From contig NZ_CP061205.1 in NCBI RefSeq assembly GCF_015240255.1, positions 1,509,501-1,573,500 of the forward strand: 64,000 bases of DNA. Direction: 5' to 3'. Under the pieces are notes generated by a model that did not search any database, was not told where the DNA came from, and saw only the letters and a program-made list of their open reading frames with translations. Within the stretch, counting starts at the first letter, position 1. Each line of letters starts with the position of its first letter. Positions 35,708 through 51,889 of the stretch are shown in pieces. Origin of the DNA: Kordiimonas pumila. Lineage in GTDB: Bacteria; Pseudomonadota; Alphaproteobacteria; Sphingomonadales; Kordiimonadaceae. The position numbers and the translations under genes were made by a program.

Positions 35708-35945
35708 TCACTGGGCACAATTGGGAGATAAAGTAACATGATTAAGCATGCCTGCAGATGAACCTATGCAGGGTGTATTGCTGTGTTTTCCCTATGCAAT
35801 GACATATTTATTGACGTTAAGGTGCATGCAGATACGTTGGCGCTGGTTAGCATGCTGCTTTCGGGGGCATGAGCCTTTCAGTCTGTGGCATGTGTTTTTC
35901 TCTTTAAAATTATCTGCAGGCGATAGCTGAGGGCAAGGTTGTGTA

Positions 35946-36200
35946 TTATCTTGCTACCATCTGTATCCGTGTCGCCTCTTTCAGTGAAATAGAATCCCTC
36001 TCCCTTATTATATTCCTTACAGTACCCATAACTAGCGTAGCAAGCTTGTGCTTATCTCTGTGCCACATGGCATAGTAACATACCAAAAGCCTTGTGGATT
36101 TATAGTGTGCTCTGGAGCTTGTTTCAGGCAGGCACGCTCTTGTTAGGTATGCTTCAAAAAGATTTCTATCTAATGGGAAAATTATTTTTGGTATTTGTAA
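35946..36200 (-). pseudogene. Possible protein remnant on the minus strand
   Basis: An 84-codon frame is open between TAA stops and its translation looks like a real helical protein C-terminus (segments PLDRNLFEAYLTRA, TRLLVCYYAMWHRDKHK, TVRNIIRERDSISLKEA). It has no good start codon upstream of the protein-like part. I do not recognise the family. It may be the 3' relic of a decayed gene, or an unusual chance frame. Confidence 0.3.
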
Positions 36201-36220
36201 TTAATTAGTACCAAAAATAA
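36182..36220. promoter_or_regulatory. Putative GntR operator, site 1
   Basis: A perfect 12-bp inverted repeat, TTATTTTTGGTA/TACCAAAAATAA, flanks a 15-base AT-rich centre. The G of GGTA to the last C of TACC spans 23 bp, as in the site at 46130-46163. It lies about 410 bp upstream of the TonB receptor. Confidence 0.6.
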
Positions 36221-36360
36221 ACACCATCAATTTTGTGCGTATTTTGGCATACTTTTAACGTTAACTAATTATTATAAATGTATTTATTTTTATTTAACGT
36301 CTCCTTTTAGAGGGGGTATCTGGCGTAAAATTGGCCTTGCTTACGTTCGTGTAAAAGTTT

Positions 36361-36394
36361 TTATTTGGTATATCTCATGCTATAAATACAAAAA
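36361..36394. promoter_or_regulatory. Putative GntR operator, site 2 (degenerate)
   Basis: TTATTTGGTA is followed after 16 bases by TACAAAAA. The left half-site matches site 1; the right half has one base changed (TACA for TACC). Confidence 0.35.
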
Positions 36395-36399
36395 TGCAC

Positions 36400-36434
36400 T
36401 TGCTATTTGGTACTTTTTAATATAAATACCATAA
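36400..36434 (+). promoter_or_regulatory. Putative GntR operator, site 3, over a promoter
   Basis: TATTTGGTA (36404-36412) and TACCATAA (from 36427) flank 14 bases. A promoter-like TTGCTA (36400-36405) with TATAAA (36421-36426) or TAAATA (36423-36428) coincides with the dyad, the same arrangement as at 46179-46218. Confidence 0.5.
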
Positions 36435-36632
36435 TTATAAGTAAATTCGCCAAAAATAAGGTATTTTATAATAATTAATGACCATATTGGTGTGTAGGTT
36501 ATTTATACCTAAATGATAAAGTGGTGGAGGGCTTAGGTTCGAAAGTGAAGGGATGGATTTTGCAATAGGCAGTTTTCAGTTGCCAGCAAGGTTTATTGGA
36601 TACGAGACTGAAACATTACAGGGAGATGTGAG

Positions 36633-38798
36633 TTGAAAAGTTATAAAATTAAAAAGAACATGTTAAGGGCTGGCGCGGGCATTATGTCCCTTGCGCTTGG
36701 TATGCCGGCAATTGCACAGTCAAGCGATGCTGATGCCCCAGAGCAACTGGAAGAAATTATCATTCAGTCATTCCGTGCAGGTAAAAGCGGTAAAGATATT
36801 CCAATCAAGATTGATGTTTTCAGGGAAGATGAAGTGCGTTTGCAGCAGTCTCTGTCAACTAACCCGGCGGAAGCGCTGGCGAACATGGTACCAAGCTTTG
36901 CGCCAAGCCGGCAAAAGCTTACAGGGTCTGGCGAGACATTCCGTGGTCGGACCCCTTTGTTCCTGATTGACGGTGTGCCGCAATCAACACCGCTGCGCCC
37001 TGGTGCCCGCGAAGGCTTCACGATTGATCTTGAGGTTATTGAGCGTATTGAGGTTATTTTTGGTGCGAATGCTATTCAGGGTCTTGGTGGTACCGGTGGT
37101 ATGATCAACTATATTACCGTTAGCCCGCCAAAAACCGGTGAGTTGCATCAGCGGGCGTCTGTTTCTCTTACCTCTAATGATGATTTTAACGGCGATAGCT
37201 TTGGCTGGCGTGCGCATTATCTGGTCGCGAAAAAGTTTGAAAAATGGGATGTCACTGCATCAGCAAGCTATGAAGAGCGTGGTTTGATGTTTGATGCAAA
37301 TGATAATGCCATTGGTATTTCAAACTTTCAGGGTGATGTGGCAGATTCCTATAGTCGTAACTTCTTTGGTAAGGTTGGCTACGAGCCAGATGAAGACCAG
37401 CGCTTTCAGTTTATGGTAAATGACTTTTATCTGGAACAGAACGGTAATTACATCCCGCTAGACGGCGACCGTACGCTTGGTATTCCTACAACTTCGATTG
37501 AGGGCGATCCAGAGGGCGGCCTACCGTACAACGATGTGACGACCATGTCGTTTGATTACCACCATGATGATTTTATGGGTGGCCGGTTTGTGCTTCAGGC
37601 TTATTACCAGAAATTTCAGGCCCTTTACGGTGCTGATATTGTAGCATCCTTTCAAGATCCAGCTATTGCTGTTGTTGGTACACTACTGGAGCAATCCCAG
37701 AATAATTCTGAAAAATATGGATCACGCTTAACATACGGGCTTGATGATATAGGCGGTCTGCCCTTGAACCTTATTCTTGGTTTTGACTTCCTGCGTGACC
37801 AGACAGCGCAGCCGCTTGTGTTGACAGGACGAGTTTCAGTACCGCCAACCACATTCTTTAACTATGCACCATTTATGCAGTTAAACTATGAGCTTGCTGA
37901 ATGGGCAACACTGTCTGGCGGTATCCGCTGGGAAGTGGCAAACCTGAAAGTGCCAGACTATATCACGCGCGCAGGTAACCGTGCGAGCAGTGACTTCCTG
38001 CCTGTGCCTGTTGAAGGTGGTAAGCGTAGTTTTGATGATTTCTTGTTTAATGCAGGCCTGGTTATTACGCCAACTGACAAATTAACTGTTTATGCTTCCT
38101 ATGCTGAGGCCTTCTCAATGCCTGATGTTGGGCGTGTGCTGCGCTCTGTTTCAACGTTTGGTGAAAGCATTAACACGCTTCTGGATATTGGGCCGCTTGT
38201 GACGGCTAACAAAGAAGTGGGTGCCTCCTATGTTGCTGACAAGTGGGAACTTCGACTGAACTATTTTGAATCGTCTTCTGACTTTGGTTCACGGTTGATA
38301 GCGCGGGACGACGGTACATTTGACCTTGCTCGCCAAGCAACAAAAACCAGTGGTTGGGAAGTTTCCGGTAAATTACGCCCAGCTGAATGGCTCTCTTTGG
38401 GGGCTGGCTACTCTCTGTTGAACGGTGTGTATGACAGCAATGACGACGGTGTGCTGGACAGGGACCTTGGTGCAAGTGAAATTGGGCCAGACCGTTTAAG
38501 TCTGTCTATGGATATTACACCAAAAGGCAAATTTAGTGGTCGCGTTCAAGCTTTCACATACTTCAGCAAGTCGTTCCTGAATGCTGCTGGTGCTGAGGTT
38601 GCAAGCTTCGATAACTATACAACGGTCGATGCCTCTGTATCTGTTGATCTGAGCCCGTTTGAAGTGAGCTTGTCTGTTAGTAACCTTCTTGATCAGCAGT
38701 ATATTACATATTTTGCGCAAGCCGCTACTTCAGCGAACTCGCTGTATGATGCAGGGCGAGGCCGTACAATTATTCTACGAACCGGCGTGACATTCTAA
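36633..38798 (+). CDS. TonB-dependent receptor (FecA/PupA-like)
   Basis: A 721-residue outer-membrane receptor. The signal peptide is within residues 1-28 (ending MPAIAQS), the TonB box lies near EQLEEIIIQSF, the plug includes PAEALANMVPSFAPS, FLIDGVPQSTP and IERIEVIFGANAIQGLGGTGGMINYIT, and the barrel ends TIILRTGVTF with C-terminal Phe. The start is a TTG: GGGAGA lies six bases before it, while a closer GTG would run into a stop; the next Met is residue 10. It opens the operon receptor, FG-GAP lipoprotein, Nramp-like carrier, amidohydrolase. Several GGTA...TACC dyads upstream point to control by the GntR protein encoded at 45111. Confidence 0.9.
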   Translation: MKSYKIKKNMLRAGAGIMSLALGMPAIAQSSDADAPEQLEEIIIQSFRAGKSGKDIPIKIDVFREDEVRLQQSLSTNPAEALANMVPSFAPSRQKLTGSGETFRGRTPLFLIDGVPQSTPLRPGAREGFTIDLEVIERIEVIFGANAIQGLGGTGGMINYITVSPPKTGELHQRASVSLTSNDDFNGDSFGWRAHYLVAKKFEKWDVTASASYEERGLMFDANDNAIGISNFQGDVADSYSRNFFGKVGYEPDEDQRFQFMVNDFYLEQNGNYIPLDGDRTLGIPTTSIEGDPEGGLPYNDVTTMSFDYHHDDFMGGRFVLQAYYQKFQALYGADIVASFQDPAIAVVGTLLEQSQNNSEKYGSRLTYGLDDIGGLPLNLILGFDFLRDQTAQPLVLTGRVSVPPTTFFNYAPFMQLNYELAEWATLSGGIRWEVANLKVPDYITRAGNRASSDFLPVPVEGGKRSFDDFLFNAGLVITPTDKLTVYASYAEAFSMPDVGRVLRSVSTFGESINTLLDIGPLVTANKEVGASYVADKWELRLNYFESSSDFGSRLIARDDGTFDLARQATKTSGWEVSGKLRPAEWLSLGAGYSLLNGVYDSNDDGVLDRDLGASEIGPDRLSLSMDITPKGKFSGRVQAFTYFSKSFLNAAGAEVASFDNYTTVDASVSVDLSPFEVSLSVSNLLDQQYITYFAQAATSANSLYDAGRGRTIILRTGVTF

Positions 38799-38904
38799 AC
38801 AACTTAGAATGGCTATTAAATAAAATATGTGTTGGGGGAATGCGGTGTGTGTTCCCCCGTTACTCAAGTTTTGTTATTTTCAGGAGTTGCAGGTGTATAT
38901 ATCC

Positions 38905-40413
38905 ATGACCAAGTCTTTCTTAAATCGTTTTGTACTACTTTCTTCAATGGCCTTAGGGGTGTCGGCATGTGCTAACTCATTAAGCCCTACGGAGATCAAG
39001 TTCACCTCCGTTCAAACGGAGCTTTTTGCAACACCAGGCGCTTTGTCAAATGCTTGGGGTGATTATGATAATGATGGCGACCTAGATTTTGTTGTGACAT
39101 TCGGAAATGGTGAAATTCGCCTTTTCCAAAATAATAACAATGTTTTTAAGAATGTTGGCGCTGTTGCAGGTTTGCCAACGGAAGGCCCTCAGCAGGTACG
39201 GTCCGCCGCATGGGGCGATTATGATGGAGACGGCGATCTGGATTTGTATGTAGGTACACAGATCAGGCCATTACCAAGTTATAACACTTTATATAGAAAT
39301 GATCAGGGAACAAAATTTGTTGCGGTTAGTGACGGGACAGCTCTAGCCCTTGAAAATGTTAATAGCCGTCAGGCCAGCATGATTGACTATGATGGAGACG
39401 GCGATCTGGACATTTTTGTTCCCGATAGAAGTGGGCCAAATCACTTGCTGCAAAACCATAATGGTACTTTTACCGATGTCAGTGAGAGCGTAGGTTTTAC
39501 AGAGAAACGTCATACTGTAGGTGCTTGCTGGTTTGATATGGATGAAGATGGTGATCTAGATCTGTTTACGACCAACATGAGCGGTGACAATGATGCTCTG
39601 TATGAAAACACCAATGGAACATTCTCAGATATTGCTGCTAAAAGTGACATTGGGAAAATTGCAAGAACTACAGAAGAAGGCGGCGTTGGCTGTACCGTTG
39701 GTGATTTTGACAATGACGGCCACCTAGACCTGTTTGTCCCTACATACGGTGCCGACCTTTTATATCGTAATGTCGGAAATGGGATCTTTAAAGAAATCGC
39801 TGCTATTTCTGGCATAACTGGGGCCAACCATATGGTTGGGGCAAGCTGGGCAGATTATGATAACGATGGTGATCTTGACCTGTATGTAGCGGGTTATATG
39901 ACAGTGGATGAAGCTTCAAAAGCAGATGATCGGTTATATGAGAATGAAAATGGTAAATTTACCAATATTCTCACGGCAGACAGCCCGCTAAACGCTTCTG
40001 ATCACGGTATACAATGGGTTGATTTTGACAATGATGGCGATCTGGATGTCTCGCTGACAGAAGGGTACCCTGAGGATGGGTCTCACCCATTGTTACGGAG
40101 TGAAATGCCGCTTGAGGGCAGGCAAAATTCCTTGAAGGTTCTGGTGCTAGATTCAGCTGGAAACTATACCAAAGCCGGGTCAGAAGTACGTATCTTTGAT
40201 GCAAAAGGTAATATACTTGCAACCCGCTTGGTTTCGACCGGTGATGGTTATAATTCACAAAGCGCTGTCCCTGTCCATTTTGGATTGAAAGATACGGCTC
40301 CAGTAAAAATCGAGGTTTCTTTTCTGGTTAACGGCAAGAGGGTGCCCCATGTGGTTGATGCCGTAGACCCATTGGAGTGGACCGGTAAGGCTATTGTTAT
40401 CAAACAACCGTAA
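38905..40413 (+). CDS. CRTAC1-like FG-GAP/VCBS repeat lipoprotein
   Basis: A 502-residue lipoprotein. The lipobox is VSAC near residue 22, following FLNRFVLLSSMALG. Seven Asp-rich calcium-binding repeats of the type DxDxDGDLDL occur (for example DYDNDGDLDF, DYDGDGDLDLY, DMDEDGDLDLF, DFDNDGHLDLF), consistent with an FG-GAP beta-propeller. The C-terminal 100 residues resemble the ASPIC/UnbV domain. I chose the ATG at 38905 because it gives a proper lipoprotein signal. At DNA level a 23-bp exact repeat links 39220-39242 and 39388-39410. It is probably anchored to the outer membrane with the TonB receptor encoded 106 bp upstream, perhaps as a surface ligand-binding partner. Confidence 0.85.
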   Translation: MTKSFLNRFVLLSSMALGVSACANSLSPTEIKFTSVQTELFATPGALSNAWGDYDNDGDLDFVVTFGNGEIRLFQNNNNVFKNVGAVAGLPTEGPQQVRSAAWGDYDGDGDLDLYVGTQIRPLPSYNTLYRNDQGTKFVAVSDGTALALENVNSRQASMIDYDGDGDLDIFVPDRSGPNHLLQNHNGTFTDVSESVGFTEKRHTVGACWFDMDEDGDLDLFTTNMSGDNDALYENTNGTFSDIAAKSDIGKIARTTEEGGVGCTVGDFDNDGHLDLFVPTYGADLLYRNVGNGIFKEIAAISGITGANHMVGASWADYDNDGDLDLYVAGYMTVDEASKADDRLYENENGKFTNILTADSPLNASDHGIQWVDFDNDGDLDVSLTEGYPEDGSHPLLRSEMPLEGRQNSLKVLVLDSAGNYTKAGSEVRIFDAKGNILATRLVSTGDGYNSQSAVPVHFGLKDTAPVKIEVSFLVNGKRVPHVVDAVDPLEWTGKAIVIKQP

Positions 40414-40446
40414 GTAACTGATTTTAATGCCTGGAAAGGTAATGTC

Positions 40447-41772
40447 ATGAGTACAGTGAGTACGATTAGAAATGCCCCGTCAGGTTTTAAGCACATACTC
40501 AAAAACATAGGCCCTGGGATTGTTATCTCAGGGTCTGTGGTAGGCTCTGGCGAATTGTTGGTAACGACAAGAATGGGCGCTGAAGTGGGTTTTGTTTTCC
40601 TGTGGGGTGTTATTCTTGCGTGTATCGTGAAGTTCTTCATTCAACTGGAATTAGGCAGGCAAGCCATCATTGGTAACAGTTCAACGATCGATATTTTAGA
40701 CAAAGTTTCAGGCGTTCGCTTTGTTGGTATATCTTGGATGGTATGGGTCTGTGTGATTGGTTTTTTCGCCGTCATGCTCTCCCTTATTGGCATATTGGGT
40801 TCTGTGTCCGGCCTTATGGCTACCATTTTCCCATTTGGTTCTGAAAAATTGTGGGCTGTTGTAGTCTTTTTGATTATGACGGCATTGTTATGGCGCGGCC
40901 TTTACAGCGACCTTGAAACGATGGTTATGGTTCTTGTTACTGGTTTTAGTCTTATCGTGATTGGCTCTGTGTTTGTGCTTCAATGGACACCTTACGCAAT
41001 TTCACCTGATGATATTCTCTCTGGCCTAACATTTGAATTGCCCGCAGAGGGCGCTTTTGTGGCACTTGCCCTGATGGGGGCAGTGGGCACCACTGCTACT
41101 GAACTCTTTATGTACCCATATTTGATACAAGAAAAGGGCTACCCGGGTTTTGTGGGGAAGCCGGATGGTTCTGCTGAATGGGAAGAGCGCTATAAAGGTT
41201 GGATGCGTGTTGTCAAGCTAGATGCGCTGGTATGTATGGCAATCGCTCTGTCGATCACGAGTTCATATTATGTGTTGGGAGCCTCAGTATTGGCAGACAA
41301 CAATATCATCCCGCAGGGTATGCGTGTTGTTGAGCAGGTGTCTCTCATCTTTACGGAAACAATCGGTTCTTGGGCATACTATATTTTTATGCTTGGTGGG
41401 TTTTGCACTTTGTTTTCGTCATTGCTTGTTGTTGCTGCGGCCTCAGCACGCATTGCTGTGGACTTTCTACAAAAAGCTGGCGTGAAACCTATAGTAGATG
41501 CAGCGGGGAAAACACGGTGGGTTCGTATTTTACAAATCTTTTTCCCGTTTGTGTGGTTGCTTTTTATTCTTGTTAACCCCGGTGCACTGGAGCTTGTTTT
41601 AAAGGGCGCTAATATTAATAATATTTTATTGTTGCCTCTTTCATATGCCGTTTTACACGTTAGCATGAAAACAATTGGTAAAGCCCGGATGTCGGTAGGG
41701 TATGAAATTTCCCTATTGGTTACGATTTGGGCTATTTTAACTTTCACCGTAGTAAATCTTTCACGTATGTAA
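40447..41772 (+). CDS. Nramp-family transporter lacking the DPGN motif
   Basis: A 441-residue inner-membrane protein with about 11 helices and Nramp-family character: the first helix reads NIGPGIVISGSVVGSGELL. Canonical Nramp proteins carry DPGN there to bind Mn/Fe; here the segment is GSGE, so classical divalent metal transport is doubtful. Helix 6, which normally holds the MPH motif, reads FVALALMGAVGTTATELFMYPYL, with no MPH. The protein therefore belongs to a divergent Nramp-related branch whose substrates are unknown. It is placed between the lipoprotein and a secreted amidohydrolase, 33 bp after the former, and may import the amidohydrolase product. Confidence 0.8.
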   Translation: MSTVSTIRNAPSGFKHILKNIGPGIVISGSVVGSGELLVTTRMGAEVGFVFLWGVILACIVKFFIQLELGRQAIIGNSSTIDILDKVSGVRFVGISWMVWVCVIGFFAVMLSLIGILGSVSGLMATIFPFGSEKLWAVVVFLIMTALLWRGLYSDLETMVMVLVTGFSLIVIGSVFVLQWTPYAISPDDILSGLTFELPAEGAFVALALMGAVGTTATELFMYPYLIQEKGYPGFVGKPDGSAEWEERYKGWMRVVKLDALVCMAIALSITSSYYVLGASVLADNNIIPQGMRVVEQVSLIFTETIGSWAYYIFMLGGFCTLFSSLLVVAAASARIAVDFLQKAGVKPIVDAAGKTRWVRILQIFFPFVWLLFILVNPGALELVLKGANINNILLLPLSYAVLHVSMKTIGKARMSVGYEISLLVTIWAILTFTVVNLSRM

Positions 41773-41789
41773 AAAGTGGGCGGTTAAAC

Positions 41790-44700
41790 GTGTCTATTTG
41801 CCATCATCTATATTGTCTTCTTCTTCTGCTGGCCTTGTGCGCGAGAGCACATACTAGCGCATCTGCAATAGAGTGGCCTGTGGATGCTATACGCGGGTCA
41901 TCTATTCCCTTTGAAGTATCACTGGATGAAGCGACATGGGTATCTCTCGATGTCTCTCCCGATGGCGAACAAGTGGTTTTTGATATTTTGGGCGACCTTT
42001 ATATCATGCCTATCAAGGGTGGTGCGGCAAAGCGGCTTACAAATGGACCAGCATACGATGGCCAGCCACGCTTTTCACCAGACGGAAAACGCATTGTTTT
42101 TGTATCAGATCGCAGCGGTACCAGTAACATATGGCTCATTGCGCCTGACGGGGAAGGCTTGCAAAAACTAACCGAGGAAGCGGATGCCAGTTTCTTTTCG
42201 CCAGAGTGGAGTGCAGACGGTCAAGATATTCTTGTAAGCCGTCATGATGATTTACTATTTACAAACTCAAGTGCTTTATACGCCTATAGCATAGAGGGTG
42301 GGGAAGGCGTTGCTTTGGTTGACAAAGCTCGCAGCCCGTTAGGTGCTGCCCCGTCACCTGATGGCAAATGGGTATATTACACAGAGAGTAGCAATACAGC
42401 TAAAGCGACTATCGAGCGGTATAATCTTCTAACAGGCGAAACGTACACAGTTGCAGACGCGTACGGCGGATCTGTAAGGCCAGCCGTAAGCCCGGATGGG
42501 CGCTTTCTCGCGTTTGGGCGTCGCTTCGATAATCAGGAACGCATGGTTCTACGTGATATAAGTTCAGGTGCAGAACAGGTGCTGGACGTTGAACTAGACT
42601 GGGACCAGCAAGATAATGCCTTTCGCGACGGCGACCAACTGCCGGGCTATAGCTTTTTGCCAGATGGGTCTGCAATTATATATGCGTCACACGGTAAAAT
42701 ACGGCGCTATAACTTAAAGAATAAAGACACTAGGATTATACCGTTCAAGGCCACATTTACGCAGACACTGCATAAGGCAGTACATTTTAAAAGAAAGATA
42801 GAAGACGGCCCGGTTACGCCTAAGTTATTACGTTGGACCCACGAAGCACCTGACGGAAAAACGCTATTTTTCAGTGCGGCAGGTAAAAACTATCAGTATA
42901 CGCTTGATACCGGAAAGGTTACCCCGGTTGGGGAAGCCTACGGTCTTGGGTATTCGCCCACTGTTTCGCCAGACGGTAAATGGCTGGCCTATACGGCGTG
43001 GACAGATGCAGGCCTTGGCCATATATACAAAACCTCTCTTGTGACCAAGGAAACGGTGCGTCTTACACAAAGCGCGGGGCTTTATGAAAATCTGGCATGG
43101 TCTGCCGATAATGCGAAACTGGTTTTTCTGAAAAGCTCAGGCGGTGAACAGCGCGGTGAAGGAAATCTGGAAGAAACGCTCCAAAAATCTATCTGTTGGA
43201 TATCAAGTGACGGCGGGGTAGCGCAGCATGTGATTACAGTGCAGCCACGCGGCGACCGGCGGCAGGCTATTCGGCCGGTTTTTAATGCAGATGCAACCCG
43301 GGTGTTTTTTGCCGAAACACCGGTAAAGCGGCAATCAACCTATTTCAATTCGGTCCGGCTTGATGGTAGCGATAAGCAACAGTATCTCGAATTTCGGTTT
43401 GCTGACGATGTTATACCGTCGCCTGACGGTAAATGGGTTGTTTTCACTGAGCATTTTGAAACCTATCTTGTGCCAATGCCTTTGGCGCACAGCAAGCCCG
43501 TTTATGTGAGCCCTGAGAGAAAAGGCGCACTACCGGTTATCAAGCTTAGTAAAGCGGGTGGCTATTTTGTAAATTGGGCTGAAAATGGCAATATGATTAC
43601 ATGGAGCTGGGGGCCTGAATATTTTCGGCTTTCGCTTCAGGATGCTCTGCTGTTAGGGGAAAACGCGAAACCTGAAATGGCTTCTATTTCCTTTACTGAA
43701 CCCAGAGTTATGGGAATAGGGCAGGTTTTGCTGCAAGGCGCCCGTATTGTGACAATGGGCGGCGCTGGTGTCATCGAGAAGGGGGATATTCTTGTAGAGA
43801 ATAACCGGATTAAAGCGCTGGGTGATACAGGCACACTTGAGGTGCCTGCTACAGCAAAGGTTATAGATGTTACAGGGAAAACAATTATCCCCGGTTTGAT
43901 TGATGTGCATTACCATTATCGTACCAGTTATAATACGGAAGTATTCCCGGAAAATGATTGGGGTTATGTTGCCCAGCTTGCTTACGGGGTAACCACGGTA
44001 CGAAACCCTTCAGCCCGTTCGCAAGCGGTTTTCACCCAAGCTGAAATGATAGAAATGGGCCGTACATTAGGGCCACGTAGCTATAGCACGGGCGAGGTTA
44101 TGTATTATGTGCGCATGCCTTTTTCTAACCCAGTTAAAAGCCTTGATGATGCACGCATTCAAGTGAAACGCATGAAAAAACTGGGGGCAACCGCTGTGAA
44201 GCAGTATAGCCAGCGCCGCCGCGAACAGCGCCAATGGGTGCTGGAGGCTGCACGCGAGGAAGGTATGAATGCAGTTGCTGAAGGCGCATCAAAAGTTTTC
44301 ATGAACATGACACTTTTGATGGATGGGTATACAAACCTTGAGCATGCGGTGAAAACCAAAGTTCTTTATAAAGACATGCGGTCACTTTTAACCGCTACTG
44401 GGACATCTTATACCCCAACCCTTATCATTTCGACCGGTGGTTCAGCACAAGATTACTTTTTTCAGCAAAGCGACGTTTTCCGCGATGAAAAGCTGCGGCG
44501 CTTTACTCCATATACAGTTTTGGCAGACTTGGGCCGCAACCGTACCATGCGCCCTGAGGAGGACTTTTATTTTAAATGGTTGGCAAAATCGACAGCCGAA
44601 GTTTTTCATGAAGGTGGCAAAGTGGTTATGGGGGCACACGGTAATCTTCAGGGGCTAGGTGCCCACTGGGAGATGTGGGCAATGGCGATGGGGGGCTTAA

Positions 44701-44972
44701 CACCTTTGGAAACATTGCAAGCTTCAACAATTAATGCAGCTTTTGCCTTGGGGTTAGATTCTGATATTGGCTCTTTGGAGGCAGGTAAATATGCTGACCT
44801 GGTGATATTGAACCAAAATCCACTTGCCGATATTCGTCATACAAACACTGTTAGCTATGTTATGAAGGGTGGCCAGATGTGGGAGGGCGCGACCATGAAT
44901 CAGGTTTGGCCTGTACAGAAAAAATTCTCTGGCTTTTACTGGCAAACGGAAGGGAAGGTGCCTTCGCGGTAA
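41790..44972 (+). CDS. Secreted amidohydrolase with N-terminal PD40 beta-propeller
   Basis: A 1060-residue exported enzyme. After a GTG start at 41790 and signal peptide (LYCLLLLLALCARAHTSASA) come about ten TolB/PD40-type blades with SPDGK motifs (FSPDGKRIVF, PSPDGKWVYY, VSPDGKWLAY and others) up to around residue 620. An amidohydrolase domain follows: GARIVTMGG, metal-binding HxH in GLIDVHYHYR, a Lys in AVKQYSQ, and the late GAHGNLQGLGAHWE and GSLEAGKYADLVIL. This architecture is known among secreted prolidase/imidazolonepropionase-like amidohydrolases. It probably hydrolyses a peptide or cyclic amide in the periplasm. The frame is open upstream to 41727, overlapping the Nramp gene, but only the GTG gives a signal peptide. 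It is last in the receptor operon. Confidence 0.82.
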   Translation: MSICHHLYCLLLLLALCARAHTSASAIEWPVDAIRGSSIPFEVSLDEATWVSLDVSPDGEQVVFDILGDLYIMPIKGGAAKRLTNGPAYDGQPRFSPDGKRIVFVSDRSGTSNIWLIAPDGEGLQKLTEEADASFFSPEWSADGQDILVSRHDDLLFTNSSALYAYSIEGGEGVALVDKARSPLGAAPSPDGKWVYYTESSNTAKATIERYNLLTGETYTVADAYGGSVRPAVSPDGRFLAFGRRFDNQERMVLRDISSGAEQVLDVELDWDQQDNAFRDGDQLPGYSFLPDGSAIIYASHGKIRRYNLKNKDTRIIPFKATFTQTLHKAVHFKRKIEDGPVTPKLLRWTHEAPDGKTLFFSAAGKNYQYTLDTGKVTPVGEAYGLGYSPTVSPDGKWLAYTAWTDAGLGHIYKTSLVTKETVRLTQSAGLYENLAWSADNAKLVFLKSSGGEQRGEGNLEETLQKSICWISSDGGVAQHVITVQPRGDRRQAIRPVFNADATRVFFAETPVKRQSTYFNSVRLDGSDKQQYLEFRFADDVIPSPDGKWVVFTEHFETYLVPMPLAHSKPVYVSPERKGALPVIKLSKAGGYFVNWAENGNMITWSWGPEYFRLSLQDALLLGENAKPEMASISFTEPRVMGIGQVLLQGARIVTMGGAGVIEKGDILVENNRIKALGDTGTLEVPATAKVIDVTGKTIIPGLIDVHYHYRTSYNTEVFPENDWGYVAQLAYGVTTVRNPSARSQAVFTQAEMIEMGRTLGPRSYSTGEVMYYVRMPFSNPVKSLDDARIQVKRMKKLGATAVKQYSQRRREQRQWVLEAAREEGMNAVAEGASKVFMNMTLLMDGYTNLEHAVKTKVLYKDMRSLLTATGTSYTPTLIISTGGSAQDYFFQQSDVFRDEKLRRFTPYTVLADLGRNRTMRPEEDFYFKWLAKSTAEVFHEGGKVVMGAHGNLQGLGAHWEMWAMAMGGLTPLETLQASTINAAFALGLDSDIGSLEAGKYADLVILNQNPLADIRHTNTVSYVMKGGQMWEGATMNQVWPVQKKFSGFYWQTEGKVPSR

Positions 44973-45018
44973 GGCGTTTCACGTATGGGCGCATGGTAGG
45001 TGTATGGATAAATTAGCT

Positions 45019-45042
45019 GGTTTTTTTTCTTTATATTGAACC
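45019..45042. promoter_or_regulatory. Putative GntR operator near its own gene (weak)
   Basis: GCTGGTT is followed after 16 bases by AACCAAAC. Outer GGT to ACC spans 24 bp, close to the 22-24 bp of the other dyads, but the inner A/T is changed. It lies about 70 bp before the GntR ATG and may give autoregulation. Confidence 0.35.
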
Positions 45043-45110
45043 AAACTTTACAAGCCTGTATAGGCTAAGGGAAGGTTCTAAAGCGGGGCCAACGACGCAG
45101 GAAGCACACA

Positions 45111-46016
45111 ATGACCACTGATAATGCAAACCTTTTACCCATGGATTTGTCAAAGCAGATTATAGGCTACTTGCGGCAGATCTCTGCCGAGCCTGGTTAT
45201 CGTTTGACAGAGCGTGCGCTTGCAAAACAGTTTGATGTTTCCCGTTCACCAGTGCGTATTGCGCTTAATTTACTCGCAGATGAAGGTGTTGTTGAGGCAA
45301 AAGAAAGTGGTGGGCGCTTCTTGGCGGTTGACCAAAAGGAACTTGAAAAATATGCTATTTCTGCGCCCGCGAACCCGCTTGGCGATCTCTATGATACAAT
45401 TATCAATGAGCAAATAGCCGGTAAACTACCAGAGCAGTTTACAGAGGCGGATTTGCTGCGCCGGTATGATGTGGCAAGGGGCCTTTTAATGAAGGTTCTG
45501 GGTAAAATGTCCAATGAAGGTCTCATTGAGCGGCGGCAGGGCCATGGATGGCGCTGCCTTCCTATCATTAATACCATGGAAGCTAATTTTAAAAGTTATG
45601 AGTTCCGCTTGGCGTTAGAGCCCAGAATTATTTTATCTGATAGCTTTGTGGTTGATAAGGCAAGGTTACAGCGCTGTTATAATTTGCAAAAAGAAATGAG
45701 CGAAGGCCGCTTGCAATATATGTCGAGCAGTGAGGTGTTTGAAGCAAACGCAGAAGTGCATCAAATGCTGGCTGACTTTTCGAATAATGATTTTTTCCAT
45801 GAAGCTATTCGCAAGCAAAACCAGCTTCGCCTTATTATGGAAAACAGGGCTGCAAGACACGCTGCACGCATGATGGACTCTTGTCAGGAACATATGCGCA
45901 TTTTAGAGGCTGTTGCAGACGGAAACCGAACCACTGCAGCAAACTTAATGTTTAGCCACCTTACCAAAGCATCGCAGAGCAGCTTTGGTTTGGCCAAGCT
46001 ATCGTTTGGTTCATAA
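45111..46016 (+). CDS. GntR family regulator with apparent tandem winged helices
   Basis: A 301-residue protein, longer than the usual 230-250 of FadR-type GntR regulators. Residues 12-70 form a winged helix (IIGYLRQISAEPGYRLTERALA, RSPVRIALNLLADEGVV). Residues 85-152 look like a second, degenerate one (LYDTIINEQIAGKL, DVARGLLMKVLGKMSNEGLIERR). An FCD-like helical effector domain follows (VFEANAEVHQMLADFSNNDFF, EHMRILEAVADGN). It lies between the receptor operon and the 46302 operon, both preceded by wide GGTA...TACC dyads. A two-headed monomer could suit the unusually wide spacing. FCD domains commonly sense carboxylic acids. Confidence 0.85.
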   Translation: MTTDNANLLPMDLSKQIIGYLRQISAEPGYRLTERALAKQFDVSRSPVRIALNLLADEGVVEAKESGGRFLAVDQKELEKYAISAPANPLGDLYDTIINEQIAGKLPEQFTEADLLRRYDVARGLLMKVLGKMSNEGLIERRQGHGWRCLPIINTMEANFKSYEFRLALEPRIILSDSFVVDKARLQRCYNLQKEMSEGRLQYMSSSEVFEANAEVHQMLADFSNNDFFHEAIRKQNQLRLIMENRAARHAARMMDSCQEHMRILEAVADGNRTTAANLMFSHLTKASQSSFGLAKLSFGS

Positions 46017-46129
46017 AGCCGCTGCTACTCCAGTAAAAAGCACATGATTTTGTAAGGCTGCACCATTGTTGCGGCCTTTTTAAATTTGCCATGCATGTAG
46101 CATAGCAGGAACCACATTTCAGAAAATGC

Positions 46130-46163
46130 TATTTTGGTACTTATTTTAACAAAATACCAAATA
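46130..46163. promoter_or_regulatory. Putative GntR operator, site 4
   Basis: TATTTTGGTA and TACCAAATA flank a 15-base centre; G to C spans 23 bp, as in site 1 (36182-36220). It lies 114 bases after the GntR stop and just upstream of the 46179 promoter. Confidence 0.6.
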
Positions 46164-46178
46164 TTTCACTTAATATAT

Positions 46179-46218
46179 TTGACTTGAGGTACTTATTATA
46201 TATTATAAACCAAAATAA
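46179..46218 (+). promoter_or_regulatory. Promoter of the PepSY-ABC operon with GntR site 5
   Basis: TTGACT (46179-46184) and TATTAT (46201-46206) are 16 bases apart. The dyad TTGAGGTA (46184-46191), a 16-base centre and AACCAAAATAA (46208-46218) covers this promoter. Binding would block RNA polymerase, suggesting repression. Confidence 0.55.
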
Positions 46219-46301
46219 AGGTTTGTGACTTTCACGTTTCTACTATTTTTAAAAAAACTTGGATCATGTGCTTGGTTGCGATGTTTCGGTAAGAGGCAGG
46301 G

Positions 46302-47396
46302 ATGCAAAAGAAGGTATTTACAGTACATAAGTGGGTGGGGCTTTCTGCGGCAGCATTTCTTTTATTGCAGGCTGTTACTGGCTTGGCCCTCGTTTACCGT
46401 GCTGATATTTTGCATATGGCTGGCGCTGGTATTTCTGTTGCAGAAGTACCAGTTCTGGAAAGTGAAGAGCGCGCTTTAGAAACCACCATCGATTTGATAG
46501 CAAATCAATACCCCAAGTGGTCTGTTCGGCGGATCGATTTTCCCGCAAGTCCTGGTGCCCCCTATGTTGGTAGAATGATCACAGATACAGGTGCCGCAGG
46601 GTTTCTCATGGTGCGCCCTGAACTAGGCACTGTGTCCGAACAAAATTTTGCAGACCGGGCTTTGCAATTTGTGTTCGATCTTCATGTTGATTTGTTGGCG
46701 GGGCAGGCGGGCGCTTATTTTATTGGCATTATGGGTATAATACTGGTTGTTGGTATTGTGACGGGTATTATCATTGCGTGGCCAGGCTTTAAGCGATTAA
46801 AGCGATCCTTAAAAGTTACATTTAAAAATACAACGCGCACACTCTTTGAACTGCACCGCAGTGCGGGCATGGTGTCTCTGGTTGTTATTTTCTTGTTGGC
46901 GTTCACTGGCATATTTTTGATTTTTGGATCGAAGATAAAACCTTTTCTAGGGGTGACATCACCGAAAGCCATTGCTGTGCAAGAAGGGGAAGTCGCGCTT
47001 CCTAATGCTCAATTGCTCAAGCTTGCAAAAGAGGCAATACCGTTTGCCAAAGTGCGAAATGTTCGTTTTACGTCAGGTGCCGTATTAAACCGGGTGGTTT
47101 TTTATCATAGCACCCTCGGCGCAACCGCGCCAGCTTCGCAGGTTTGGATTAACCCTGTGACAGGTGCAGTCACCGCACAGAAGCAGGCGTCAGACATGAG
47201 CTTTGTTGAAGCGTTCTTTGCGTGGATGTACCCACTTCATGTTGATTTTGCATTGGGTCGCTTTGGTCAGTTGTTAAGCTTTTTGGGTGGTTTGGTGATT
47301 ACGCTTTTAACAATCACTGGCCCGATTTTATGGTGGCGTCGGTATCAAATTAGGAAGCCCAAAGTGCACCGCGCAAAAGGAGCTGGCAATGCTTAA
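46302..47396 (+). CDS. PepSY-associated TM protein, copy 3
   Basis: A 364-residue PepSY-associated inner-membrane protein. The first helix is VHKWVGLSAAAFLLLQAVTG with the His at residue 7. A second His-bearing helix group lies near residue 128 (FVFDLHVDLLAGQAGAYFIG), a third starts ELHRSAGMVSLVVIFLLAF near 185, and the last is near 325-345. As in FoxB-like proteins it probably reduces or helps release metal from an imported chelate. It is the first gene of the operon running to 58630, under the putative GntR-controlled promoter, and its end overlaps the esterase start by 8 bp. It is a third PepSY copy in 37 kb. Confidence 0.8.
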   Translation: MQKKVFTVHKWVGLSAAAFLLLQAVTGLALVYRADILHMAGAGISVAEVPVLESEERALETTIDLIANQYPKWSVRRIDFPASPGAPYVGRMITDTGAAGFLMVRPELGTVSEQNFADRALQFVFDLHVDLLAGQAGAYFIGIMGIILVVGIVTGIIIAWPGFKRLKRSLKVTFKNTTRTLFELHRSAGMVSLVVIFLLAFTGIFLIFGSKIKPFLGVTSPKAIAVQEGEVALPNAQLLKLAKEAIPFAKVRNVRFTSGAVLNRVVFYHSTLGATAPASQVWINPVTGAVTAQKQASDMSFVEAFFAWMYPLHVDFALGRFGQLLSFLGGLVITLLTITGPILWWRRYQIRKPKVHRAKGAGNA

Positions 47397-48219
47397 TGTT
47401 TATGAAAAGGGCGCAACTGCTTATGTCGCATCAAGGTATGATCAGCGCTTTGGGTATTATCTTTATGTGCCTGAGGCTTTTAGCTTTGACTGTGCAGCAG
47501 ACTATCAGCTTATTGTTGTTATTCATGGTTCAAACCGGACGCCTCAAACCTACCGCGACCTGTTCAAGGATTTTGCAACCGCACATAAGTGTATTGTTTT
47601 AACGCCGCTTTTCCCAGCGGGCATTTATGAAGACGGTACCGAGGCGAATTATAAGTTTCTTCGTTCGGGTGGTCTCAATTTTGATACCATTTTGCTTGAA
47701 ATGGTGAAGGAAGTACGCGGGCGCTACATGCTTCCAGATGTGCCGTTCTATATGCATGGTTTTTCTGGTGGCGGTCACTTTGCTCACAGGTTTTTCTATT
47801 TCCACCCACAGGCCCTGAAGGCTGTTTCAATTGGCGCGCCGGGCATGGTGACTTTACTGGACGCAAGTCAGAACTGGCACTGCGGTGTGAAAGACTTTGA
47901 AGGCCGCTTTGGTCAAGCACTTGATTATGAATCGATGCGCGGTGTTGCGGTCCACATGGTTGTTGGCGCAGATGATACCGAGACATGGGAAATCACTATT
48001 GAAGAAGATGACCCCCTCTGGATGCCGGGTGTAAACGATGCAGGCCGTACGAGGTTAGAGCGGCTAGCCGCGCTTAGGCACAGTTACGAGGCACAAGGCG
48101 TGTCGGTACAGTACAGCCTTGTAACGGGTGTGGGACACGACGGGTTTAAGCTTCTTGAGCCAGTAAAAGCCTTCTTCGCCAGCATTTTAAAACAATCTCA
48201 ATCACATAATAGACAGTAA
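47389..48219 (+). CDS. Alpha/beta hydrolase (esterase/depolymerase-like)
   Basis: A 276-residue alpha/beta hydrolase. VVIHGSNRTP near residue 43 forms the oxyanion region, the nucleophile elbow is GFSGGG with Ser126, a likely acid lies near Asp196 (VGADDTE) and the His in TGVGHDGFK near residue 257 completes the triad. The pattern recalls PHB-depolymerase/esterase D-like enzymes. No signal peptide is visible, so it is cytoplasmic. It overlaps the PepSY gene by 8 bp and is followed 3 bp later by the C45 hydrolase. Siderophore operons often include an esterase that opens the chelator to release metal; that analogy is inference. Confidence 0.82.
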   Translation: MLNVYEKGATAYVASRYDQRFGYYLYVPEAFSFDCAADYQLIVVIHGSNRTPQTYRDLFKDFATAHKCIVLTPLFPAGIYEDGTEANYKFLRSGGLNFDTILLEMVKEVRGRYMLPDVPFYMHGFSGGGHFAHRFFYFHPQALKAVSIGAPGMVTLLDASQNWHCGVKDFEGRFGQALDYESMRGVAVHMVVGADDTETWEITIEEDDPLWMPGVNDAGRTRLERLAALRHSYEAQGVSVQYSLVTGVGHDGFKLLEPVKAFFASILKQSQSHNRQ

Positions 48220-48221
48220 CA

Positions 48222-49322
48222 GTGGATAATATTTCTATGACAACGCCTTTCCCTTTAATTGATGTATCTGGTTCACCGTTTGAATGCGGTGAGCAGCATG
48301 GTCGGCTTGCTGGCGAGCGCATTGTTCGTGGGCTTCAATTATATCAGGCAGATTTTGAGCGCCGGGGCATCTCGTGGGCAGATGCGCTGCTGGCTGCAAA
48401 ACATTATGAGCCTGTTATTGCTGCATATTCAGATGATCTATGGCAGGAAATACGCGGTATCGCGGCGGGTAGTGAGCAGCCAACAGAAGCGATCCTGCTG
48501 CTAAATGCCCGTACAGAATTGGCGTTCTCGAAAAAAGATACAGCCTCCTTGGATGTTGATGGCTGTACTGCTATTTTGGCCCTGCCTGAGGCAACGGCGG
48601 CAGGTAATCTGTTGCACGGCCAAAGCTGGGATTGGCGCCCAGACTGTGCGCACACCTCTATCGTTTTGCGTATTACACCTAAAACTGGCCCGCGCATGCT
48701 ATTGTTTTGCGAGGCTGGGCAATTGGCGCGCCACGGTATGAACAGTGCAGGCTTGGCACTTACCGCAAATGGTTTACAAAGTAATCATGATACCACCAGC
48801 AACGGTATTCCAACACCTTTTACGCGCCGTAAAATGTTCACACAGGATAATTATTCGGCAGCGATTGGTATTTTGCTTAATAGTAAACGGTCTTTTTCCC
48901 ATAATATTATAATCAGCCACCGGGAAGGTGAGGCTATCTGCCTTGAAACGACACCAAAATCAGCTTTCTGGATTGAGCCGCAAAAAGGCATTTTGAGCCA
49001 TGCTAACCATTTCAAGCACCCAACAGCGCTGTTATCTGTTGAAGATTTAAGCTTGGCCCGGCACCCGGAATCATTGCACCGCGATGGCCGTGCCCGACGC
49101 CAGCTTGAGGCGGCTAATGGCAAGATAACCGCAGAGACTTTTAAAACCATTCTTGCGGACAAATTTGACAGCCCTAATGCAATATGTCGCACACCTGCTT
49201 ACCGGGCAGACGGCGCTTATTCATGCACTGTCGCAAACTTGATCATGGATACGACAGCCGGCAAAATGTGGCTTGCGCCCGCTCCTTACGACGGGGCTGT
49301 TTATACAGAGTATAGCCTGTAA
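48222..49322 (+). CDS. C45 family autoproteolytic acyltransferase/hydrolase
   Basis: A 366-residue enzyme of standard C45 length. The N-terminal ECGEQHGRLAGERI near residue 21 is the family entry motif. The self-cleavage site is DVDGCTAILAL with nucleophile Cys115 (cut before Cys). HGQSWDWRPD near 137 is the conserved GQNWDW-type block, and SAGLALTANGL near 180 completes the pattern. These Ntn hydrolases cut N-acyl amides or form them. The start shown is GTG; an ATG at 48237 is an alternative with equally weak ribosome site. Its stop overlaps the SBP start (TAATG). A larger relative lies at 5138. Confidence 0.85.
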   Translation: MDNISMTTPFPLIDVSGSPFECGEQHGRLAGERIVRGLQLYQADFERRGISWADALLAAKHYEPVIAAYSDDLWQEIRGIAAGSEQPTEAILLLNARTELAFSKKDTASLDVDGCTAILALPEATAAGNLLHGQSWDWRPDCAHTSIVLRITPKTGPRMLLFCEAGQLARHGMNSAGLALTANGLQSNHDTTSNGIPTPFTRRKMFTQDNYSAAIGILLNSKRSFSHNIIISHREGEAICLETTPKSAFWIEPQKGILSHANHFKHPTALLSVEDLSLARHPESLHRDGRARRQLEAANGKITAETFKTILADKFDSPNAICRTPAYRADGAYSCTVANLIMDTTAGKMWLAPAPYDGAVYTEYSL

Positions 49323-50935
49323 TGATTTTACCTGTGCCAAATATATCTTTGTTTTCCCTAAGGCGAGGTCAGGGGCTTTTGTTTCTTGCCTTTGTGACTT
49401 TACTGTTGGGATCATTGCCAGTTGGTGCATGGGCACCCAGTGAAGCAGATGAGCTGAAGGTTGTTTTGCAGGGTGATATTAAAGGTACAAACCCCGGTGT
49501 AACCCGCGACGGTAATACTGACACTGTTATACATCATATTGCGGAATCGCTGGTTGCCTACAGATCTGATTTATCGGTTGCCCCTATGCTTGCTAAAAGC
49601 ATTCAGGTTTCAGACGATATGACACGATTTACCTTTACCTTGCGGGGCGGGGTGAAATTTCATAACGGATCCGTTATGACGTCGAAAGAAGTGAAATGGA
49701 GCTGGGACCGCATGTTAGACCCGGCAACACGCTGGCGGTGCAGGCACTGGTATGACGGCAGCAATGTGCAAAGCAGCAAAATAGAAGAAATCACAACACC
49801 AGACCCGCAAACTATTGTCTTTCAGCTTGAAAAACCAAGCTCTGTTTTTCTCGATCGAATGGCTAATGTGCAGTGTATTACAGCCATTTTACACCCGGAT
49901 TCTGTAAGCGCTGATGGAACGTGGATAGAGCCTATTGCAACCGGGCCTTATAAGTTTGAGGAATGGAAACGCGGTGAATATGTGCTGCTGACTAAATTTG
50001 ATGAATATTCAGCACGCACGGAACCGCGGGATGGTTATGCTGGCCGCCGTGAAGCTCTTGTTCCCCGTATAAGGTTTATGGTGGTGGGTGAAATGGCGAT
50101 TGGTGTTGCCAGTATTCTCTCGGGCAATATTGATATTTTACCGCTTTTACCGCTGCATTTGGTGCCTGACTTTAAAAGAAGGCCAGATGTTAAAATTCAG
50201 GGTAAAAACCTTCTTTCCTGGTCTGTACTTTTGATGCAGTCAAACGATGAAACCCTGAAGGATGTTCGCATTAGGAAGGCGATAGCCCACGCTATCAATA
50301 TTGATCAGGTCGCGGCTATTTCTACATTTGGTAATGCGCAGGCAAACCCTTCTGCTATACCCCTTGATAGTCCCTTTCATACCCCTGTTCATAAGACATG
50401 GTACGAATATAGCCCGGCAAAGGCAAAGGCGCTGCTGAAAGAGGCGGGCTATCACGGCCAAGCGCTAACGATCAAAACTAACCGCAAAATTCCGTACATG
50501 TTTGAAAATGCCATTGCAATTCAAGCAATGCTAACAGCGGTTGGCATAAATGCTCCACTCGAGGTGGTAGACTGGGCAACCCAGCTTAGTGATTTTTTCA
50601 GTGGAAATTTTCAGCTTTCGGCATTTGGGTATTCTGGCCGTACACATCCTGCATTGAACTATGACAGCTTTCTCGGGCTTAAGGACGACAAGCCAAATAT
50701 GCAGTGGGATAATCATGCCATGCTGGAACTGCTGCAAAAGGCAGAGCAGGAGCCCCTTGTTGAGCGCCAAAAACAGCTATTTGAGCAAATCCATCTCGCC
50801 ATGTACGACGAGGTCCCCATCATCGGGCTTTTCAACGAATACGGTGCCGACGTAACCCGCACGAACATCCAAGGGTACGAACCATGGGTTATGGGGCGGC
50901 CCCGTTTATGGGGTGTGCGGAAAGAGGAGCGCTAA
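49322..50935 (+). CDS. ABC transporter substrate-binding protein, copy 2
   Basis: A 537-residue family 5 SBP with signal peptide (LLFLAFVTLLLGSLPVGAWA). It is a clear paralogue of the SBP at 18027: shared segments are NPGVTRDGNTDTVI against DPGVNRDANTDTVM, FHNG, ATGPY and EPRDG, and the two Cys positions are kept (WRCRHWYDGS, VQCITA). The shared features suggest related ligands. It is coupled to the C45 gene by TAATG and followed by two permeases and a fused ATPase. Confidence 0.9.
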   Translation: MILPVPNISLFSLRRGQGLLFLAFVTLLLGSLPVGAWAPSEADELKVVLQGDIKGTNPGVTRDGNTDTVIHHIAESLVAYRSDLSVAPMLAKSIQVSDDMTRFTFTLRGGVKFHNGSVMTSKEVKWSWDRMLDPATRWRCRHWYDGSNVQSSKIEEITTPDPQTIVFQLEKPSSVFLDRMANVQCITAILHPDSVSADGTWIEPIATGPYKFEEWKRGEYVLLTKFDEYSARTEPRDGYAGRREALVPRIRFMVVGEMAIGVASILSGNIDILPLLPLHLVPDFKRRPDVKIQGKNLLSWSVLLMQSNDETLKDVRIRKAIAHAINIDQVAAISTFGNAQANPSAIPLDSPFHTPVHKTWYEYSPAKAKALLKEAGYHGQALTIKTNRKIPYMFENAIAIQAMLTAVGINAPLEVVDWATQLSDFFSGNFQLSAFGYSGRTHPALNYDSFLGLKDDKPNMQWDNHAMLELLQKAEQEPLVERQKQLFEQIHLAMYDEVPIIGLFNEYGADVTRTNIQGYEPWVMGRPRLWGVRKEER

Positions 50936-50947
50936 CAGGCGATTGTT

Positions 50948-51889
50948 ATGTTTAGTTATACACTTAAAAAAATAATCATGACGATACCGACGCTGTTCAT
51001 TCTTGCGCTCCTTATTTTCATGTTGATGCGGTCTGTCCCCGGTGATCCTGCCGTTCTTATTGTGGGCGACCTTGCAGACCCTGCGGTACTGGCACAAGTG
51101 CGGTTGGAACTTGGTTTGGATAAACCCGCTTATGTGCAGTTTTGGCTATGGCTTAGCCGCGCCCTTGGGGGCGATCTTGGGGTTTCGCTTATTACCGGCG
51201 AGGATATTTTAACGGGGCTTCTATCGCGGTTTACTGTTACGGCTCAGGTGGTTCTTGTTGCAATCCTCTTTTCTGCGTCGATTGCAATTCCTGCAGGTAT
51301 GGTAGCGGCGTGGCGGCAAAATAGGCCGACAGATTTCTCCATCGTGTTTTTGATGAATGTATTTTTGTCTATTCCGGGTTTTTGGATGGCCCTGATGTTC
51401 ATCTTTTTGTTTGGGGTTTATCTTAACTGGTTACCTACTATTGGCTATGTATCGCTTGCCGAGGACTTCAGCGGCGGTATGAAATATCTACTGATGCCGG
51501 TTTTGTCTCTGGTGTTTCTGGAGGTTGCTACCCTTACACGGATGATGCGTGCCAGTTCTATTGAAGTTCTGCGTCAGGAATATGTGACGCACGCCCGTGC
51601 AAAAGGTCTTAGTGAAGGTGTGGTGCTGAGGCGGCATGTGTTTAAAAATGCTTTTGCACCCACACTTACAATGCTGGGCTTAACGCTTGGCTCGCTCCTT
51701 GGCGGCGCAGCGGTTATTGAAACTGTCTTCACATTACCGGGTTTGGGGCGTTTCCTTGTCGAGGCGATATACGCTCGCGACTATGCTGTTGTGCAGGGTG
51801 TGTTGATATTTGTGGCAGGGGTTTACGTGCTTGTAAACTTGTGTGTGGACCTGCTGTATCCAGTACTTGATCCAAGGGTAAGACTATGA
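50948..51889 (+). CDS. ABC transporter permease, DppB/OppB type, copy 2
   Basis: A 313-residue permease with the DppB-type start (LILLIF region, MRSVPGDPAVLIVGDL) and coupling loop THARAKGLSEGVVLRRHVFKNA near residue 215, nearly matching the copy 1 loop. It begins 12 bp after the SBP stop and overlaps the next permease by 4 bp (ATGA). Its first 25 residues are hydrophobic, as expected for the first transmembrane helix. Confidence 0.92.
   Translation: MFSYTLKKIIMTIPTLFILALLIFMLMRSVPGDPAVLIVGDLADPAVLAQVRLELGLDKPAYVQFWLWLSRALGGDLGVSLITGEDILTGLLSRFTVTAQVVLVAILFSASIAIPAGMVAAWRQNRPTDFSIVFLMNVFLSIPGFWMALMFIFLFGVYLNWLPTIGYVSLAEDFSGGMKYLLMPVLSLVFLEVATLTRMMRASSIEVLRQEYVTHARAKGLSEGVVLRRHVFKNAFAPTLTMLGLTLGSLLGGAAVIETVFTLPGLGRFLVEAIYARDYAVVQGVLIFVAGVYVLVNLCVDLLYPVLDPRVRL

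Follow-up and report, generated by a model that had tools for sequence, protein, structure and literature searches.

The 64-kb window (the whole stretch of Kordiimonas pumila DNA analysed here) contains a set of wide inverted repeats, built on GGTA and TACC boxes 14 to 16 bases apart, which precede two presumed operons separated by a gntR gene. We consider it likely that the gntR product is an FCD repressor with tandem heads, the four winged helices of its dimer lying along a dyad of about 28 bp. Judged from sequence, this protein is the most likely ligand of the dyads, and its doubled head would most likely account for the width of the operator.

The first presumed regulated operon opens with the gene of a TonB-dependent receptor (36633..38798, + strand; PF00593 and PF07715) and continues on the same strand (38827..44972) with those of an FG-GAP protein with an ASPIC/UnbV match, an Nramp-like transporter and a propeller-amidohydrolase protein. 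The latter (41787-44972) has 1061 residues, its propeller (PD40, DPPIV_N) being fused to the amidohydrolase domain, and shows a sub-threshold likeness to lasso peptide isopeptidase and Xaa-Pro dipeptidase models. Then come gntR (45111..46016, +), which codes for 301 amino acids with winged helices at about 8-72 and 89-150 and an FCD domain at 163-285, and the presumed regulated PepSY operon (46302..55203, +). This second operon encodes a PepSY protein (46302-47396), a hydrolase with a weak PHB-depolymerase-type match, a C45 acyltransferase/hydrolase, a family-5 solute-binding protein, two permease-like proteins and a double ATPase (both named by eye), and an RraA-like protein. These coordinates agree with the original prediction, made on this DNA before our analysis, that the sites precede the TonB receptor and PepSY operons with the GntR gene in between. 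An Rfam scan of the window at gathering thresholds gave no match.

Site s1 (36182..36220) has the perfect 12-bp arms (36182-36193 and 36209-36220) and the 15-base centre that had been predicted, and reads GGTA-N15-TACC at 36190. Dyads proposed at 36404-36434 and 46130-46163, with centres of 14 and 15 bases, were likewise recovered with exact boxes as s2 (36403..36436; GGTA-N14-TACC at 36409) and s3 (46130..46164; GGTA-N15-TACC at 46136). The fourth (46184-46218, centre of 16) exists as an N16 site, s4 (46182..46217; GGTA-N16-AACC at 46188), but its right half AACC is imperfect. For the two weaker dyads proposed, that at 36361 holds as a one-mismatch N16 site, s5 (36361..36396; GGTA-N16-TACA, match at 36367), whereas that at 45019, 5' of gntR (s6, 45013..45048; GGTT..AACC), is doubtful and much weaker: under a matrix trained on the five clear sites, it scores 12.3 bits and these five score 26.8-35.4. 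A weak candidate absent from the earlier list, s7 (36454..36489; GGTA-N16-GACC at 36460), lies close by. Measured from inner G to inner C, the distance between the boxes of a dyad in the window is 19-21 bp, or roughly two helical turns. The centres of s3 and s4 are about 52.5 bp apart, or five turns, a piece of arithmetic on two sites which may be due to chance.

Two sites had also been said to lie on -35/-10 pairs. Promoter-like sequences indeed overlap s2 (TTGGTA-17-CATAAT, 36407-36435) and s4 (TTGACT-16-TATTAT, 46179-46206), but such pairs only modestly exceed their number in shuffled sequence (6 vs 3.3, sd 2.1; 6 vs 2.4, sd 1.7). The centre of s1 lies about 430 bp 5' of the start of the TonB receptor gene, which is distant for straightforward blocking at the start itself; a transcript that has escaped notice, or a loop to s2 or s5, is possible.

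The number of dyads was compared with dinucleotide-preserving shuffles of three intergenic stretches (35708-36632, 44973-45110 and 46017-46301). Exact GGTA-N14-16-TACC occurs three times in them, against a shuffle mean of 0.05, and eight dyads are found when one mismatch is allowed, against a mean of 1.24; two of the eight, at 35937 and 44995, are in our judgement unrelated. These one-mismatch dyads number 2, 3 and 3 at spacings 14, 15 and 16, and 3 at spacing 9, the remaining spacings giving 0-2. Across the whole 64 kb the exact pattern occurs seven times, four of them outside the sites of the locus, so that the bare pattern is not diagnostic.

Relatives of the regulator were then a source of independent sites. 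Full-length homologs (E<=1e-35) were present in 20 of 385 genomes of a class sample, 20 of 398 of a phylum sample and 4 of 196 of an order sample, the genome of K. pumila being included in each count, and at least nine in named genomes such as those of Bosea, Variovorax, Tistrella and Pseudoroseomonas. Loci with their flanks were fetched for 20 of the 22 matches that the class search gave outside this genome (both copies of genome G296 were omitted), for 18 of the 21 given by the phylum search (G468, G714 and G475 omitted) and for both copies of G815 from the order search, those of G035 being also in the set. A scan of genome contigs gave at least 79 distinct loci from at least 337 relatives, of which the best nine were used, the rest having E of 4e-10 or worse. 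Of 51 near-full-length loci analysed, 12 were set aside for their identity of at least 70% to another, leaving 39, the window excluded.

A model of palindromes, its half-sites 10 bases long and its spacer free between 2 and 15, was trained on the region -350..+60 of the estimated gntR starts of these 39 loci, with the window left out. It converged on half-sites ATTGTATTTT with a modal spacer of 8 and a score of 231-234 bits (231 being the best of 12 starts), as compared with 69-103 in 20 shuffled sets; per sequence, this is 5.9 bits, whereas other upstream regions of these loci, drawn 16 times, gave 2.0-3.0. The best site had a spacer of 8 in 11 loci and of 7-9 in 20, and 27 of the 39 loci reached p<=0.05 when left out of the training. 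After single-linkage clustering at 50% (24 sequences), the motif retained 5.13 bits per sequence, none of 10 shuffled sets exceeding 2.73; 11/24 left-out loci reached p<=0.05, and three of the 24 leave-one-out trainings converged on another, aTTTTGG-like motif. Sites of at least 20 bits numbered 45 in the 39 loci, against 8, spread out, in one shuffled set (the matrix had been trained on portions of these loci), and among the 45 the spacer was 8 in 20, 7 in 5 and 9 in 3. The modal form in homologs is GT-N18-AC, an architecture like that of the window, with boxes some two helical turns from each other. The middle of the motif is poor in base information, with 0.14-0.48 bits at the centre positions, save in the outer boxes and in a T tract. 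Shorter half-sites with spacers of 0-24 gave a less distinct picture: a 6-base search gave no peaked spacing in either the tandem-headed or the single-headed group, and a 7-base search in the tandem group gave TTGTATT, with spacers of 11-14 in 18/39.

The homolog half-site TTGTATTTT is the counterpart of TTGGTAYTT in the window, which carries a G where T stands in most homologs; the G form is also found in relatives L038 (TTTGGATTTATAATATTATAAAATACCAA) and L187 (ATGGTATTATATTCATGTTAAATACCAT). No significant site was found near gntR in 12 of the 39 homologs, including the closest (L188, 47% identity), for which 195 of 200 shuffles scored as well and whose operon starts at a contig end. When the homolog-trained matrix was run over the window with spacers of 6-9, s2, s3 and s5 ranked 2, 4 and 5 with 16.9, 15.9 and 14.8 bits, s5 being tied with a match inside the PepSY gene and the top match being intragenic; s1 and s4 were outside the top 15. 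The mean maximum of 40 shuffled windows was 16.7 bits, about equal to these scores, and when the two site-bearing regions were shuffled by themselves, 39 and 70 of 2000 shuffles scored as high as the true best match. With this matrix by itself, the sites of the window would not stand out. Elsewhere in the homolog loci, 21 of 179 other upstream regions reached 15 bits, some of them probably as true neighbouring sites.

The architecture of the protein was examined by domain search and modelling. Pfam recognised PF00392 in two stretches (65.8 bits) followed by PF07729 (FCD; 48.9 bits), and the protein thus has the N-terminal GntR winged helix and the C-terminal all-helical FCD domain of the FadR/FCD subfamily; typical members, though this is no defining trait, have one winged helix per subunit, and this protein has two. 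In the AlphaFold model (mean pLDDT 85, pTM 0.64, from a ten-sequence alignment), head 1 is predicted with helices 8-23, 34-41 and 45-57 and strands 61-63 and 69-71, head 2 with helices 89-102, 112-119 and 123-135 and strands 139-142 and 146-149, and the C-terminal domain as all-helical, its helices lying within 156-298. A structure search with this model returned GntR-family regulators of ordinary size at ranks 1-49 of the best 50; no solved protein with the layout of two heads and an FCD domain appeared among these or among 13 sequence matches in solved structures (chains of 77-265 residues). Glu34, Arg45 and Gly68 of head 1 are repeated 78 residues further on as Glu112, Arg123 and Gly146 of head 2. 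As described for FadR and Atu1419, Glu34, Arg45 and the wing glycine contact DNA, and Arg45 of Atu1419 reads the guanine of the half-site (PMC7797058). Since the DNA-contacting residues of head 1 are mirrored in head 2, both heads look able to bind DNA.

It is possible, if clearly less probable, that the gntR product binds with one winged helix per subunit on the DNA, the second acting as a spacer or a dimer contact that widens the separation of the heads. The scarcity of base information outside the outer boxes and the T tract would fit such an arrangement, as would the looser recognition helix of head 2, in which positions 122 and 124 vary. The conservation of the second head argues against it: its Arg, Glu and Gly signature is retained in 33, 30 and 34 of 39 homologs, Trp147 is invariant (39/39), and the mean majority fraction is about the same in the two heads (0.55 in head 2 vs 0.53 in head 1). 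Arg45 is found in 39/39 and Arg123 in 33/39, at 77-79 residues from each other in 35/39; two PF00392 stretches were recognised in seven of ten homologs scanned, and one in the remaining three.

If two ordinary dimers bound side by side, each wide dyad would be formed by the outer boxes of compact operators that are themselves weak. Extra boxes at 7-12 nt from the centre are reported for the FadR, HutC and YtrA groups (PMC4494728), and the outer boxes lie here at about 10 nt. We regard this arrangement as unlikely: the near-empty centre of the motif holds no compact core, and at equal half-site length compact models fit the tandem group less well than wide ones, although still above their shuffles (4.62 vs 6.32 bits per sequence with 10-base half-sites, 3.06 vs 4.52 with 8-base half-sites). 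Single-headed FCD regulators served as controls, of which 5/30 reached 15 bits, while 20/39 tandem loci did so with matrices trained without them, as counted from the leave-one-out list. An initial comparison of 24/39 with 5/30 (p = 5.5e-5) was set aside, its matrix having been trained on the tandem loci that it scored and being biased. The controls are a mixed set from which no clean compact motif emerged; their wide model (3.54) exceeds both their shuffles (2.19) and their compact models (3.05 and 2.57), so that the contrast between wide operators for tandem heads and compact ones for single heads is suggestive only.

The genes that adjoin the dyads in relatives, called mechanically as open frames, were also examined. 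In L038, a block resembling that of the window (TonB receptor, PepSY, hydrolase, C45, solute-binding protein, permease, ATPase) lies on one strand; one dyad precedes an aminotransferase-like gene, recognised by eye, at its head, and another lies between gntR and a divergent gene. A dyad stands between gntR and a divergent C45 gene in L199, and dyads precede class-III aminotransferase genes in L187, L043 and L048, a solute-binding/ABC operon in L040, an amidase gene in L039 and, in L204, a TonB receptor gene and an undecaprenyl-phosphate-translocase-like gene. They flank gntR on both sides in L038, L039, L040, L157, L158 and L204. Aconitase and isocitrate/isopropylmalate-dehydrogenase genes adjoin the dyad in L157 and L158, and the differing neighbours of L157, L158 and L204 indicate that the regulated pathway varies between relatives. 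In L042, L044 and L047 the dyad overlaps a possible start codon of gntR, which suggests self-control through blocking of the start region. The original prediction was to fall if the dyad were not enriched upstream of transcription units in homologous loci; the wide dyad was recovered de novo 5' of gntR in distant homologs, and is found before neighbouring genes as well. In its core, that prediction is supported; it did not include the two winged helices per subunit, which are the probable cause of the width.

Within the genome of K. pumila, the N15 consensus TTNGGTAYTT-N9-AARTACCNAA with at most one mismatch was found at this locus only, which fits the predicted local character of the regulon. 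With up to three mismatches there were 9 forward matches vs 13 in the reversed control. A genome-wide regulon was rejected, as nothing rises above the background but the two local sites, with 0 and 1 mismatch, in the N15 register to which this search was confined. Exact TTGGTA-N12-20-TACCAA occurs ten times, two of them at this locus, vs four in the control; of the eight distant sites, the one that was scored, an A/T-rich site at 3991466, obtained a low 5.3 bits with the window matrix. Among 18 congeners, none carried the N15 pattern with 0-1 mismatch, and two mismatches gave nine sites in six genomes, vs seven sites in six genomes for the reversed control; these matches include L243-L245 and G018:C4:35239-35267, in congeners lacking a full-length regulator, the one in G018 being a clean inverted repeat. 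A full-length regulator at E<=1e-35 was present in 0/18 congeners (four of these genomes are 76-83% complete), six of which gave partial matches (E 6e-5 to 6e-4), and the C45 gene had a single weak match (25% identity) among the 18. The gene set at 45111-55203 therefore looks gained by K. pumila or lost by its congeners.

These data also bear on the idea that another regulator binds the dyads and gntR is a bystander. The doubtful site 5' of gntR, which leaves self-control unproved here, and the clean dyad of G018 speak for it. Against it, most of the distant genomes tested have the wide dyad alongside the regulator, and a second C45-hydrolase-ABC module of K. pumila (G000:C1:3286500-3306400, L249; identities of 48%, 43% and 43%), which adjoins single-headed FCD regulators, shows no comparable dyad: its best match has 15.3 bits, vs 26.8-35.4 for the window sites on which that matrix was trained, and no inverted repeat of at least 8 precedes its ATPase gene. 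We thus hold a bystander role to be improbable, and the second module offers a natural comparison between a single-headed regulator and the tandem-headed one of the window. Finally, chance inverted repeats from A/T-rich intergenic sequence are a very improbable source of the sites, even with G+C contents of 26-37% in the site-bearing 250-base blocks and homolog-matrix matches near the shuffle maximum, as none of 1000 shuffles attained the count of exact or of one-mismatch dyads.

In the preferred reading, the regulator encoded by gntR, of FadR/FCD type with its winged helix duplicated, has the dyads as its operators; we infer binding, repression, occupancy by four heads and an effector. A dimer joined through its FCD domains would present four winged helices in line: two would read the outer TTGGTA boxes (TTGTA in most relatives), about two turns apart on one face of the DNA, and the remaining two would sit over the A/T-rich middle. 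Once bound, the protein would cover the promoters of both operons, the one headed by the TonB receptor and the PepSY-hydrolase-C45-peptide-ABC one, and repress them, repression being suggested by the overlap of two sites with promoter-like pairs and by the general habit of the family. Release would follow when the FCD domain binds the substrate of the pathway or one of its breakdown products.

More broadly, the homologs may well represent, by a slight balance of probability, a widespread unnamed FCD branch with a duplicated winged helix, its own class of four-head operators of about 28 bp and peptide/amide-uptake gene sets, in several proteobacterial lineages. Within a large bacterial regulator family, this would connect a second winged helix with boxes set two turns apart, so that protein and operator architecture change together, and the system lends itself to a simple experimental test of whether duplicating a domain can yield new DNA specificity. 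The homolog matrix can be used to annotate the targets of tandem-headed regulators. Among the matches listed from the open-licence literature, no title or abstract opening describes this architecture.

The original prediction had called the wide spacing unusual for GntR operators, which holds for the FadR/FCD subfamily, while wide operators are described for YtrA (PMC4494728). According to the same source, half-site spacing is nearly constant in the FadR and HutC subfamilies, and FadR-type operators have 2-3 nt between GT and AC. The sites of the window are GT-N16-18-AC and depart from the compact GT-N2/3-AC that is typical, with known exceptions, of FadR/FCD operators. Measured against YtrA, the wide palindrome is present, and the short two-helix C-terminal part is not, an FCD domain occupying 163-285. 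YtrA proteins have one winged helix. As in YtrA, whose contact positions are given as 12-13/29-30 (PMC4494728), the palindromes are long and hold their GT and AC at a large distance from the centre; unlike YtrA, with a C-terminal part of about 50 residues (PMC4494728), the gntR product has an FCD domain and two winged helices. NanR, listed as a member of the FadR subfamily, shares boxes of the GGTATA type (PMC4494728), but binds direct repeats as three dimers (PMC8012715), whereas the sites of the window are inverted and wide. With FadR, LldR, PdhR and the VanR-type Atu1419, the protein shares the winged helix and FCD domain, as well as boxes of the TKGT/ACMA type whose guanine is read by a conserved Arg in the systems described (PMC4494728, PMC7797058); it differs from them by its two winged helices per subunit and by a GT-AC distance of 16-18 nt instead of 2-3. 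By its domains the gntR product belongs to the FCD branch of GntR, and by its inferred operator it would depart from that branch.
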